Part shown: one piece after another, positions 3,477 through 32,645 of the stretch
How the letters are laid out: every line of letters begins with the position of its first letter
Position numbering within the stretch: position 1 is the first letter of the stretch
From: Natrialbaceae archaeon Tc-Br11_E2g8
Lineage (GTDB): Archaea > Halobacteriota > Halobacteria > Halobacteriales > Natrialbaceae
Reading direction: 5' to 3'
DNA length: 35,695 nt
Assembly (NCBI GenBank): GCA_001564115.1
Contig: LKNG01000002.1
Location: 1-35,695, forward strand
Made by a program: the position numbers and the translations under genes
Notes under the pieces: generated by a model
What the model was told of the DNA's origin: nothing
The model's input: only the letters and a program-made list of their open reading frames with translations
Databases searched by the model: none

Positions 3477-3513
3477 ATTCGATTCGAACGCACGGACTTG
3501 TCCGCTATCAACC

Positions 3514-3648
3514 TGTCGGGTTCGGAAGGTCTGATCGACGTGTCGGGTTCGGAAGGTCTGATCGACGTGTCGGGTTCGGAAGGTCTGATCGACGTGTCGG
3601 GTTCGGAACGACTGATCGACGTGTCGGGTTCGGAACGAGTGGCCGACG
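3514..3648 (-). repeat. Five 27-bp tandem repeats upstream of artA
   Basis: Units lie at 3514-3540, 3541-3567, 3568-3594, 3595-3621 and 3622-3648. Units 2 and 3 are identical; units 4 and 5 differ at a few bases. Each plus-strand unit begins TGTCGGGTTCGGAA. The array stops directly before the likely artA core promoter: the minus-strand bases next to it read CCGACAGGTTGATAGCGG, with a TATA-like TTGATA about 31 nt from the ATG, and resemble a degenerate sixth unit. Because 27 is a multiple of three, the array is open in several frames and creates spurious ORFs encoding a repeated RTRHVDQ peptide. Confidence 0.93.
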
Positions 3649-6442: not shown

Positions 6443-8527
6443 ATGACCGGCGACCCCGAGGGATCGACGGCGATCCGGGAACTCGACGCGGACACCGTCG
6501 CCCGGATCGCCGCCGGCGAGGTGGTCGAACGGCCGGCCAGCGCGGTCAAAGAGCTCGTCGAGAACAGTTTGGACGCCGACGCCTCCCGGATCGACGTGAC
6601 GGTCGGGGAGGGTGGAACCGAGCTGATCCGCGTCGCCGACGACGGCCACGGGATGAGCGAGGCCGACCTCCGGGCGGCCGTCCGCCAGCACACCACGAGC
6701 AAGATCGAGGGGATCGGCGACCTCGAGAGAGGGGTCGCCACCCTCGGATTCCGCGGGGAGGCTCTGCACACGATCGGCTCGGTTTCCCGGCTGACGATCC
6801 GCTCGCGGCCCCGTGAAGCCGCCGGCGCGGGGCGGGAGCTCGTCTACGAGGGTGGGGAGCTCGTCGAAATCCAGCCCGTCGGCTGTCCCGAGGGGACGAT
6901 AGTCGAGGTGACCGACCTCTTCTACAACACGCCCGCACGTCGGAAGTTCCTCAAGACGACAGCGACGGAGTTCGCCCACGTCAGCCGCGTCGTCACCCGG
7001 TACGCGCTGGCGAACCCGGAGGTGGCCGTCTCCCTGAACCACGACGGCCGTGAGGTGTTCGCGACGACCGGCCGGGGGGAGCTCCGGGAGGCCGTCCTCG
7101 CGGTGTACGGTCGGGAAGTAGCCGAAGGGATGATCCCCGTCGACGCCGGCGGCGAGGAACTCCCGGCCGGCCCGCTCGAGGGGATCTCGGGGCTGGTCTC
7201 TCACCCCGAGGTCAACCGCTCGAGCCGGGAGTACCTCTCGACGTACGTCAACGGACGGTCGGTCACCTCGGGGGCGATCCGCGAGGGGATCGTCGACGCC
7301 TACGGGGGACAGCTCGGCGACCGCTACCCGTTTGCGGTCCTCTTTCTTACCGTGCCCGGCGAGGCCGTCGACGTCAACGTTCACCCGCGCAAAGCGAGAG
7401 TGCGCTTCGACGACGACGACGCGGTCCGTCGGGGGGTCGAAACCGCCGTCAGGGAGGCCCTCCTGGAGGAGGGGCTGCTCCGCTCTCGGGCCCCACGCGG
7501 CCGGTCGGCCCCCGGAGAGGCCCGGATCGAACCGGGCGAATCGGCCGCCAGCCCCGACGAGTCCGGGGACGCCGCCGAGAGGACCGGCGGAGACACCGAC
7601 TGCCGGAGTGCGCCGGAGACGGTCGACGACCGGAAACCGGCACACGGCGTGGCCGACACGCGGGACGCGGAGACGGCGACGGTGGACAGCCGCGAATCCC
7701 GAGACGACGGGACGACCGACACGGTGACCGACGGGCCGGACCGGTCGCCGACGGAATCCGCGGGATCGCCGGACAGTCGGGCAGATCACGCGGACGGCCG
7801 GACTGATCACGCGGACCGCCGGGCTGACCACGCGGACCGCCCGACCGATCGGAAGTTCGTCGGGGAAGCCGATCAACGAACCCTCGACGGGGAGGCCGCG
7901 ATCGGCGAGGGGCGTCGGTTCGACTCGCTGCCGCCGCTTCGGGTGCTCGGCCAGCTCCGGGAGACGTTTCTGGTCTGTGAGAGCCCCGACGGGCTCGTGC
8001 TCGTCGACCAGCACGCGGCCGACGAGCGGGTCAACTACGAACGCCTGCGGGAGGCGTTCTCGGCGGAGACGACGGTCCAGACGCTCGCCGATCCGGTCGA
8101 GCTCGAGCTGACCGCCGCCGAGGCCGAGACGTTCGCGAGCTGCCGTGAGGCGCTCGCGCGGCTGGGCTTTCGCGCCGAGTCGACCGACGGACGACGCCTC
8201 GCCGTGACCGGCGTTCCGGCGGCGCTGACGACGATTCTCGAGCCCGAACGGCTCCGGGACGTGCTGACCGCGATGGTGACCGGAGACCGAAAGGCGGGCG
8301 CCGAGACGGTCGAGGCCATCGCCGAGGGGTTTCTCTCCGACATGGCCTGTCACCCCTCGATCACCGGCAACACCTCGCTCACCGAGGGGTCGACGCTCGG
8401 GTTGCTCGAGGCACTCGACGACTGTGAGAACCCCTACGCCTGCCCGCACGGCCGACCCGTGCTCGTCGAGATCGACGCCGACGAGCTGGAGGACCGCTTC
8501 GAGCGGGACTACCCCGGCCACGGCTGA
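6443..8527 (+). CDS. mutL: DNA mismatch repair protein MutL
   Basis: This 694-residue MutL begins with a complete GHKL ATPase: motif I ELVEN (residues 37-41, Glu catalytic, Asn binding Mg), ADDGHG (65-70) and GFRGEAL (102-108). A transducer domain reaches about residue 345. Residues of roughly 350-490 are a disordered Asp/Ser/Thr/Arg-rich linker containing three copies of a DHADxRx heptad. The C-terminal dimerisation domain contains DQHAADERVNYE at residue 522, an exact DQHA-x2-E-x4-E metal-binding motif, so this should be the endonuclease-active type that nicks the discontinuous strand after MutS finds a mismatch. No mutS is present in the window. A TATA-like GAATTAACG lies about 28 nt before the ATG. 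It converges with the DUF5305-like gene 13 bp away. Confidence 0.96.
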   Translation: MTGDPEGSTAIRELDADTVARIAAGEVVERPASAVKELVENSLDADASRIDVTVGEGGTELIRVADDGHGMSEADLRAAVRQHTTSKIEGIGDLERGVATLGFRGEALHTIGSVSRLTIRSRPREAAGAGRELVYEGGELVEIQPVGCPEGTIVEVTDLFYNTPARRKFLKTTATEFAHVSRVVTRYALANPEVAVSLNHDGREVFATTGRGELREAVLAVYGREVAEGMIPVDAGGEELPAGPLEGISGLVSHPEVNRSSREYLSTYVNGRSVTSGAIREGIVDAYGGQLGDRYPFAVLFLTVPGEAVDVNVHPRKARVRFDDDDAVRRGVETAVREALLEEGLLRSRAPRGRSAPGEARIEPGESAASPDESGDAAERTGGDTDCRSAPETVDDRKPAHGVADTRDAETATVDSRESRDDGTTDTVTDGPDRSPTESAGSPDSRADHADGRTDHADRRADHADRPTDRKFVGEADQRTLDGEAAIGEGRRFDSLPPLRVLGQLRETFLVCESPDGLVLVDQHAADERVNYERLREAFSAETTVQTLADPVELELTAAEAETFASCREALARLGFRAESTDGRRLAVTGVPAALTTILEPERLRDVLTAMVTGDRKAGAETVEAIAEGFLSDMACHPSITGNTSLTEGSTLGLLEALDDCENPYACPHGRPVLVEIDADELEDRFERDYPGHG
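7784..7846 (+). repeat. Three 21-bp in-frame repeats in the MutL linker
   Basis: Units at 7784-7804, 7805-7825 and 7826-7846 each encode DHADGRT, DHADRRA or DHADRPT. They share G-A-[TC]-CACGCGGAC. The period keeps the reading frame and the repeats lie in the disordered linker between the ATPase and endonuclease domains, so they alter only linker length. Confidence 0.9.
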
Positions 8528-17526: not shown

Positions 17527-17575
17527 GGCGGACCCTCCTCGCCCGATCTCCGTATGGGTATCGGTCCCGTATCGA

Positions 17576-17705
17576 TCCGGCTCTCGGTCGTAGAGCATCG
17601 GTCCGGCTCTCGATCCCGGAGTACCGATCCGGCTCTCGGTCGTAGAGCATCGGTCCGGCTCCCGATCCCGGAGTACCGGTCCGGCTCTCGATCCTAGAGT
17701 ATCGT
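17576..17705 (-). repeat. Five 26-bp tandem repeats overlapping the carboxyltransferase stop codon
   Basis: Units lie at 17576-17601, 17602-17627, 17628-17653, 17654-17679 and 17680-17705; each plus-strand unit begins TCCGGCTC. Units 1 and 3 are identical and units 2 and 4 differ at two bases, giving a higher-order 52-bp A-B-A-B pattern. Unit 5 contains the TAG stop (17694-17696) and last three codons of the upstream carboxyltransferase gene. The array separates it from the MaoC gene, and the MaoC frame stays open through it. Confidence 0.94.
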
Positions 17706-27370: not shown

Positions 27371-27490
27371 AACGGTCCGATCCTCGAACGAGCTCAGAGA
27401 ACGGACGGACGCGCTCGCCGTCACAGGTAGTGACTCCGGATGTCCCATCCACACGGACCAGTGCTCCCCACGTGGGTCAGCGCGCTCTCC

Positions 27491-27564
27491 GTGGCCGTAG
27501 GTCAGCACGTCCTCGGTGGCCGTAGGTCAGCACGTCCTCCGTGGCCGTGGATCACAGCGCCTCG
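27491..27564 (-). repeat. Three 24-25-bp tandem repeats spanning the hisA stop codon
   Basis: Units at 27491-27515 and 27516-27540 differ at one base; a third, 27541-27564, is 24 bp and contains the hisA TGA (27552-27554) and the codons for its last residues. All start GTGGCCGT. A partial fourth copy (GGGTCAGCGCGCTCTCC) precedes them at about 27474-27490. Confidence 0.9.
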
Positions 27565-30223: not shown

Positions 30224-30273
30224 CCGTCACCCGGGATCGGGCGTCGAAGCCGTCACGCCGCTGGCACGGGGAC

Positions 30274-30381
30274 GATCGTTCGTTCGGCTGGTGTGGGGAT
30301 GGTCGTTCGTTCGGCTGGTGTGGGGATGGTCGTTCGTTCGGCTGGTGTGGGGATGGTCGTTCGTTCGGGAACACTATGGGC
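30274..30381 (+). repeat. 27-bp tandem repeats running into the ribbon-helix-helix gene promoter
   Basis: Units lie at 30274-30300, 30301-30327 and 30328-30354; the last two are identical and the first differs by one base. Each has TCGTTCGTTCGGCTGGTGTG. A fourth (30355-30381) keeps the first 14 bases, then changes to GAACACTATGGGC, which supplies a TATA-like ACTATG about 32 nt before the ATG at 30407. Confidence 0.93.
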
Positions 30382-31053: not shown

Positions 31054-32118
31054 CTAGCCGACGACGCGACCGACGCGCTCGAGTCCCTCCTCGAGTTCCG
31101 CCGTCGGGAGCCCGAAGCCGATCCGGAACCGGTCGTCGTGGCCGAAGAACTCGCCGGGTGCGAGCACCACACCCTCCTCGAGGACGGCCCGGCAGAACTC
31201 GACGCCGTCGGCGAAGCCGTCGGGGACGGTCACGAAGCCGTTGACCCCGACGGGCTCGTGCCACTCGAGGCCGTGGGCGTCGAGAAATCGTGACACCCGC
31301 TCGCGGTGGTCGGCGGCCAGCCGGCGGCTCTCCTCGAGGATCGACGCCTCGCGGTCGCCGAGGGCCTGTCTCGCGACGTGCTGGCCGAAAATCGACGGCG
31401 AGATGGTCGTGTAATCCTTCCACCGCCAGGCGGCGTCGACGACCTCCCGGTCGCCGACGAGCCAGCCGAACCGGAGCCCGGCGAGCCCGTAGGCTTTCGT
31501 CAGGCTCGCCGTCGAGAGACCGTGTGGTCCGAGGCTCGCGACCGGCGGGAGCGGCTCCTCGGCGAGCAGCCGGTAGACCTCGTCACAGAGCAGGTAGGCG
31601 TCGTTCTCGGCGGCGAGGTCGTACAGCGCCCGGACCGTCTCGATGGAGTGGTACCGTCCGGTCGGGTTGTTCGGGTTGACGAGGACGACGACGCGGGTCT
31701 CCGGACGGACGGCGTCGGCGACCGCGTCGACGTCGAGCTCCCAGTTCGGGGGTTCGAGGCCGATCCGGGTGACCTCACAGAGCGCCTCGGGGACGGCCGA
31801 GAGCGCCTGGTAGGTCGGCGTGACGACGACGGCGTGTCCGGGACCGTCCCCCGCGAGCACGGCGAGAAAGGCGAGGAAGTTCGCCTCCTGGGTGCCACAG
31901 GTAAAAAGCACCTCGTCGGGGCCGCGGTCGTACCGTCGGCCGACGTCCGCCCGGAGCTCCGGATCGCCGTTCGTGGGTATGACGTAGCCCAGCTCGCCCG
32001 GATCCGTGTCGAACTCGGCGGCGTCCAGGCTCCTGATCCCGCTCTCTGCGAGCATGACGTCGGCCCCGTGTTCGTGCTCGGCGAACCACCGTTCGAGGCC
32101 GAAGGGTTCGATCTCCAT
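31054..32118 (-). CDS. PLP-dependent aminotransferase, class I/II
   Basis: The 354-residue enzyme has the fold type I aminotransferase landmarks: GTQEANFLAFLAVL (75-88, phosphate loop), the NPNNPTG motif (148-154), CDEVYRLL (178-185, Asp179 and Tyr182 contacting PLP), Schiff-base Lys208 in TASLTKAYGLAGLRFGW, and the terminal FRIGFGLPTAELEEGL. The family includes aspartate and aromatic aminotransferases and LL-DAP-like enzymes; the substrate is not determinable here. The ATG at 32118 (MEIEPFGLERWF) is conventional; nine upstream in-frame codons are leader. The promoter lies in a 34-bp duplicated segment. Confidence 0.9.
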   Translation of the reverse strand: MEIEPFGLERWFAEHEHGADVMLAESGIRSLDAAEFDTDPGELGYVIPTNGDPELRADVGRRYDRGPDEVLFTCGTQEANFLAFLAVLAGDGPGHAVVVTPTYQALSAVPEALCEVTRIGLEPPNWELDVDAVADAVRPETRVVVLVNPNNPTGRYHSIETVRALYDLAAENDAYLLCDEVYRLLAEEPLPPVASLGPHGLSTASLTKAYGLAGLRFGWLVGDREVVDAAWRWKDYTTISPSIFGQHVARQALGDREASILEESRRLAADHRERVSRFLDAHGLEWHEPVGVNGFVTVPDGFADGVEFCRAVLEEGVVLAPGEFFGHDDRFRIGFGLPTAELEEGLERVGRVVG

Positions 32119-32151: not shown

Positions 32152-32205
32152 TCCCCGGACGGCGGGAGGTCGGACATTTCACCCGTCCCCGGACGGCGGG
32201 AGGTC
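32152..32205 (-). repeat. 34-bp spaced duplication at the aminotransferase promoter
   Basis: TCCCCGGACGGCGGGAGGTC occurs at 32152-32171 and again at 32186-32205. On the minus strand the copy closer to the gene runs directly into AAGCTATTTGTC, a TATA-like element about 30 nt before the ATG at 32118. Confidence 0.88.
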
Positions 32206-32269
32206 CTGCCGTCCAGTTCGGTTTCGTGGCGGCAGGTTCGGCTGTCGTCGGCTCCGGACGCTGACTCTT

Positions 32270-32424
32270 CAGGTCGACCCTAGACGCTGACTCTTCAGGT
32301 CGCTCCCAGACGCTGACTCTTCAGGTCGCTCCCAGACGCTGACTCTTCAGGTCGCTCCCAGACGCTGACTTTCCAGGCCACCCCCAGACCCTGAACCGCC
32401 AGTCGCCCCTAGACGCTGACTTTC
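32270..32424 (-). repeat. Six 25-26-bp tandem repeats derived from the 3' end of the small HTH gene
   Basis: Units lie at 32270-32295, 32296-32321, 32322-32347, 32348-32373, 32374-32399 and 32400-32424. The core AGACGCTGACT[CT]T[TC] recurs in most. Unit 5 (32374-32399) is the most diverged. Unit 6 holds the TAG stop (32409-32411) and the last codons of the HTH gene (minus TGGAAAGTCAGCGTCTAG). In the other copies those codons have decayed, for example TGAAGAGTCAGCGTCTGG. A degenerate further copy precedes the array at about 32250-32269. Confidence 0.94.
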
Positions 32425-32645
32425 CAGGTCGTACTAGAGGAGTAGCCCCACTTTTCGATGTCGACGTCGTAGTCGCCCTCCTGGAGGGCACGGATGTTCG
32501 AGCCGACCTCCTTCGCGGTCATTCCGAGCTCCTCGCCGATGAGCCGGGATTTGAAGTAGGTCTTCGTCGGGGCCTTTCTCCGCAGGTACTGGAGGATCCG
32601 CCGCTGTTTGCCGTTGAGGTCGGCGGTGGTCATCGCGCTGCTCAT
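32409..32645 (-). CDS. Small winged-helix-like DNA-binding protein (DUF7123-like), 78 aa
   Basis: The product has one HTH domain: LNGKQRRILQYLRRKAPTK, then TYFKSRLIGEELGMTAKEVG (turn and recognition helix) and a beta hairpin DYDVDIEKWGYSSSTTWKV. I recognise it as a conserved haloarchaeal family (DUF7123-like) with no assigned target. Start options are the ATG at 32645 (MSSAMTTADL) or 32633 (MTTADL); longer readings are leader. A perfect GAGGGTC-GA-GACCCTC inverted repeat lies just upstream, probably its own operator. The stop codon and last residues lie in a 26-bp tandem array. Confidence 0.83.
   Translation of the reverse strand: MSSAMTTADLNGKQRRILQYLRRKAPTKTYFKSRLIGEELGMTAKEVGSNIRALQEGDYDVDIEKWGYSSSTTWKVSV

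Follow-up and report, generated by a model that had tools for sequence, protein, structure and literature searches.

A minisatellite at the stop codon of a DUF7123 gene, one of many tandem arrays in a haloarchaeal genus

A tandem array in the gap behind a DUF7123 gene

The window analyzed here (the whole stretch of 35,695 nucleotides) is a contig of a haloarchaeal assembly (G000) that comprises 2.29 Mb in 192 contigs and is 70% complete. In this window, a gene for a small HTH-like protein is followed on the same strand by a class I/II aminotransferase gene, and the 290-bp gap between the two, in front of the latter, holds a tandem array. The small protein matches DUF7123 (PF23438) over the whole domain (109.5 bits versus a Pfam gathering cut-off of 27), its C terminus reads WGYSSSTTWKVSV-stop, and orthologues were present in all 61 of the 61 genomes searched. 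The features discussed below are as follows, with the units delimited by their alignment and, for U0, also by the gene ends of orthologues.

32409..32645, minus strand: DUF7123 (PF23438) gene, 78-aa HTH-like small protein, start ATG at 32645 or 32633, ending in GYSSSTTWKVSV-stop
32404..32429, minus strand: unit U0, the last 18 coding nt, the stop codon and flanking bases; the ancestral copy
32379..32403, minus strand: unit U1, 25 nt, the most diverged
32353..32378, minus strand: unit U2, retaining the gene's TGGAAAGTCAGCGTCT
32327..32352, minus strand: unit U3, TGAAGAG variant
32301..32326, minus strand: unit U4, same sequence as U3
32275..32300, minus strand: unit U5, TGAAGAG variant with TAG retained
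32249..32274, minus strand: unit U6, distal, in part diverged
32152..32205, no strand assigned: second direct repeat in the same gap, two copies at 34-bp spacing, 20 nt identical
31054..32118, minus strand: class I/II aminotransferase gene
6443-8527, plus strand: mutL gene

The array consists of seven head-to-tail units (window positions 32249-32429), all of 26 bp except one of 25. TRF, run on the window, reports it at 32257-32431 (period 26, 6.8 copies) with a score of 224, whereas the score never exceeded 77 when the full 35.7-kb sequence was dinucleotide-shuffled 20 times; the existence of the array is thus confirmed far beyond chance. The units are GC-rich and diverged, and given their head-to-tail order, similar length and above-chance similarity, we class the array as a minisatellite, a noncoding tandem repeat with a unit in the 10-100 bp range.

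At the gene end, U0 reads ACCTGGAAAGTCAGCGTCTAGGGGCG on the minus strand. Its core, GTCAGCGTCT, is repeated without change in U2-U5, and U1 has TTCAGGGTCT at the same place. The first-pass annotation had counted at least five downstream copies with this core; four of these (U2-U5) are exact, but the fifth, U6, reads GTCAGCGTCC instead. The substitutions that it described likewise apply to part of the array. The change of TGG to TGA is present in U3-U6 and absent from U1-U2 (the gene's TGGAAAG is retained by U2, and TGAAGAG is common to U3-U6), and the change of the stop triplet from TAG to TGG holds for U1-U4, but U5 still has TAG and U6 has CGG.

A search of the 2.29-Mb assembly with the array unit gave a single match and no second copy; with no related copies elsewhere in the assembly, the array does not qualify as a dispersed mobile repeat (MITE, SMR or PATE). 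Nor does it look like a structured RNA or an intrinsic terminator, since Rfam returned no match and the predicted RNA fold is unremarkable (z -1.33, a stability that 20 of 200 shuffles also reach). Other arrays with periods of 25-27 bp, unrelated to this one, lie in the window at 3507-3635, 17569-17704, 27471-27548 and 30268-30368.

Origin of the repeat unit

The window and 95 orthologues supply 96 distinct gene ends, and TTWKV followed by one to three residues is terminal in all 96; the C terminus (WKVSV-stop in the window) is therefore conserved, as the first-pass annotation had held. A downstream repeat of the tail occurs in none of the 95 other orthologues, which include the only congener compared, and when the last 21 nt are compared with the 300 nt that follow them, the closest stretch agrees at 19/21 positions here versus 8-14/21 in the other orthologues. 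In another genus (G021, locus L007), the last 21 nt are identical (21/21) and no array follows. A gene tail that is conserved and unrepeated in 95 orthologues argues that the gene end is the older element and that the array was made from it. To judge from these alignments, the gene end is indeed ancestral and the source of the array unit, as had been proposed from the window by itself.

The opposite order of events, in which an existing intergenic repeat invaded the gene, overran its 3' end and now encodes the C terminus, would draw on the close match between U0 and the other units and would predict orthologues that lack the C-terminal sequence. However, all 95 carry the tail without an array, and the tail is identical to the nucleotide in another genus. 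The orthologue tails refute invasion, and we give it essentially no credence. The exact locus offers no clean empty site, because the DNA behind the gene differs in the congener: genes of 3.4 kb and 0.8 kb lie between its DUF7123 and aminotransferase genes (L054, 1684-5846) and are missing from the window, two genes having been gained or lost. In some relatives (L011, L018 and L021), the equivalent gap contains unrelated arrays of 25-30 bp.

The direction in which the array grew is less legible than the ancestry of its unit. The first-pass annotation took the loss of coding sense as a clear sign of outward amplification, a reading that does not survive: the copies lie behind the stop codon in a 26-bp register and are never translated, and because the period is not divisible by three, coding sense is expected to drift away, and its loss is uninformative on direction. 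The array is not graded outward either, given that the distal U5 has TAG and U1-U4 do not, and substitutions along it form a mosaic with no gradient. The order of events is unreadable because U1 is so diverged and U2 and U5 are so mosaic. The alignments bear out the ancestry of the unit, and they do not appear to support a simple outward march.

A genus-wide load of arrays and its filter

The sampled 400 kb of this genome contains 130 arrays at a TRF score of at least 80 (32.5 per 100 kb), mostly with periods of 20-45 bp, from which we estimate many hundreds in the whole genome. The congener has 18.5 per 100 kb in its first 92 kb and 13.3 over 263 kb, whereas the density is 3.2 in 24 other genomes of the family and 3.25 in 20 genomes of the order, about 20 kb having been sampled from most of these. 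When noncoding sequence is considered by itself, each 10 kb of it contains 14.65 arrays here, 7.6 in the congener, 0.71 in the family and 0.69 in the order. With a re-implementation of a SATFIND-like count, this genome has 65 arrays per Mb; by that count the congener has 30.5 and relatives have about 8. The load in the genus is about tenfold above that of its relatives. As a control, 79 loci around the DUF7123 orthologues of named records have 3.7 arrays per 100 kb, and MAGs are no higher. In the open-access literature on haloarchaeal minisatellites, we found no paper on this genus or on such a load.

A common unit sequence does not underlie these arrays, since the top similarity between units of different arrays is 0.70 versus 0.73 for shuffled units. 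This dissimilarity, together with the lack of a second copy of the unit, points to local origin and not to dispersed elements. Copy number also changes between species: an orthologous 27-bp array present in both genus genomes (L047 14594-14749, L053 1733-1860) differs by exactly one unit.

Selection is visible in this lineage, in codon-length units within genes and in the avoidance of start codons. Of the 56 coding arrays, 50 have a period that is a multiple of three, versus 24 of the 74 noncoding ones, which fall 24/27/23 into the three modulo-3 classes. Start codons are overlapped by 8 arrays versus 22.7 +/- 3.8 under random placement, and stop codons are overlapped by 18 of the 74 intergenic arrays versus 20.6 +/- 4.0 (400 kb), counts that come from a simple gene caller and carry some error because it chose the wrong strand for mutL. 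The random-placement null rules out a preference for gene ends, and a gene end is not a special seed; a stop-spanning duplication keeps the protein intact, and gene ends are therefore simply tolerated. Pfam matches were obtained for 16 stop-overlapping genes, DUF7123 included, among them ribosomal protein S10, glutamine synthetase, S9 peptidase, amidase and SDR. Two of these gene tails tell the same story as that of DUF7123: the S9 peptidase tail (DEHV-stop) occurs in most relatives with no array behind it, and the glutamine synthetase tail occurs in relatives in a diverged form, also with none. Behind an OB-fold/S1 protein gene (L034, 9155-9249), the tail GGCGAGCTGCTCGGCTGA and its stop recur about five times with 98% identity, which is a cleaner case of the same phenomenon.

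Could the arrays be largely artefacts of metagenome assembly? Both genus genomes are fragmented (70% and 53% complete), and an array is found within 200 bp of 8 of the 39 contig ends, versus about 9% expected. However, real repeats that interrupt assembly would likewise place arrays at contig ends; moreover, point mutations distinguish the units, the multiple-of-three rule holds for coding arrays, one array is common to the separately assembled congener, and other MAGs show the normal density of the control. We see only a very slim chance that assembly explains the load, and the copy numbers of near-identical units may be wrong in the assembly. Somewhat less remote, yet still improbable, is the idea that selection keeps the array as a functional cis element, either a termination or processing region behind DUF7123 or a binding-site array before the aminotransferase gene. 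The array does fill most of a same-strand gap, U3 equals U4, and the core GTCAGCGTC is retained in 6 of 7 units. Nevertheless, it is missing from all relatives, the congener included, the RNA structure and Rfam results given above speak against such a role, and the many unrelated arrays of varied period argue for a general mutational cause. RNA structure, Rfam and conservation were checked and revealed no function, and the array is most likely neutral.

Proposed mechanism and known systems

We posit that the array would have started when about 26 bp across the DUF7123 stop codon were locally duplicated in tandem, and that later copy gain and point mutation would have built it up. Because translation ends at the first stop and the protein is unchanged, the extra copies would be tolerated and free to drift. 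Array formation most likely proceeded by replication slippage or by microhomology-mediated template switching. An extra partial unit of at least 3 nt is found in 74% of 23 near-perfect arrays versus 11% of simulated blunt duplications, a statistic that fits slippage between short direct repeats, although extra partial units can also follow a first duplication. Selection would then act as a filter that admits codon-length units within genes and any length between genes and that spares start codons. Microhomology-mediated slippage duplication with such a filter is the most likely mechanism. Taken whole, we consider it highly probable that this noncoding minisatellite arose by local duplication at the DUF7123 stop, as one of a genus-wide load generated by slippage or template switching and filtered by selection. 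The array would then represent the harmless copying of a gene tail into intergenic DNA.

What raises the load across the genus? We tentatively suggest, as one candidate of less than even probability, a heritable alteration of replication or repair that raises the rate of 20-45 bp tandem duplication about tenfold over that of relatives. Loss of known repair genes was considered and rejected: NucS and FEN1 are found in both genus genomes, and MutL is found in G000. Several relatives have mutS 2-6 kb from mutL; there is no mutS elsewhere in the 35.7-kb window, and a mutL-linked mutS copy was found in neither genus genome, both being incomplete. The absence of mutS is a weak lead because of that incompleteness and because MutS/MutL are reported to be dispensable for mutation rate in Halobacterium salinarum (PMC2816208). 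High GC content is ruled out as the cause, as array density is low in relatives whose GC content matches or exceeds that of this genome. If a heritable change were responsible, the genus would be a natural minisatellite mutator open to study, its activity recorded in gene tails and intergenic DNA. The lineage offers a natural comparison on the control of medium-length tandem duplication in archaea.

The arrays differ from the tandem repeats of Borgs (PMC9879509), which are perfect, A-rich and carried on extrachromosomal elements of methane-oxidising archaea; those described here have GC-rich, diverged units and lie scattered between housekeeping genes of the chromosome, and the contig itself encodes mutL and TFB, among other chromosomal genes, so that a Borg-type repeat is not what we see. 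In Haloquadratum walsbyi (PMC3119063), small haloarchaeal rearrangements are similarly mediated by short direct repeats, some 4-20 bp long, but there the outcome is mostly deletion, and here it is a net gain of tandem copies. The closest likeness is to prokaryotic minisatellites and VNTRs, described in a survey as head-to-tail units of 10-200 bp, of local origin and usually species-specific, with coding minisatellites in Halobacteria mostly of a period divisible by three (PMC6749651). The present arrays share the head-to-tail units, the local origin and the codon-length coding periods, and the array behind DUF7123 is an ordinary tandem duplication, a minisatellite of known type. Among the survey's values considered here, the highest, for Methanobrevibacter ruminantium, is about 28 per Mb, and two haloarchaea have 5-9 per Mb (PMC6749651), versus the 65 per Mb counted in this genome, a comparison that is approximate because the software differed. 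What stands out is not this one array but the load across the genome, in a lineage of a well-sampled haloarchaeal family.
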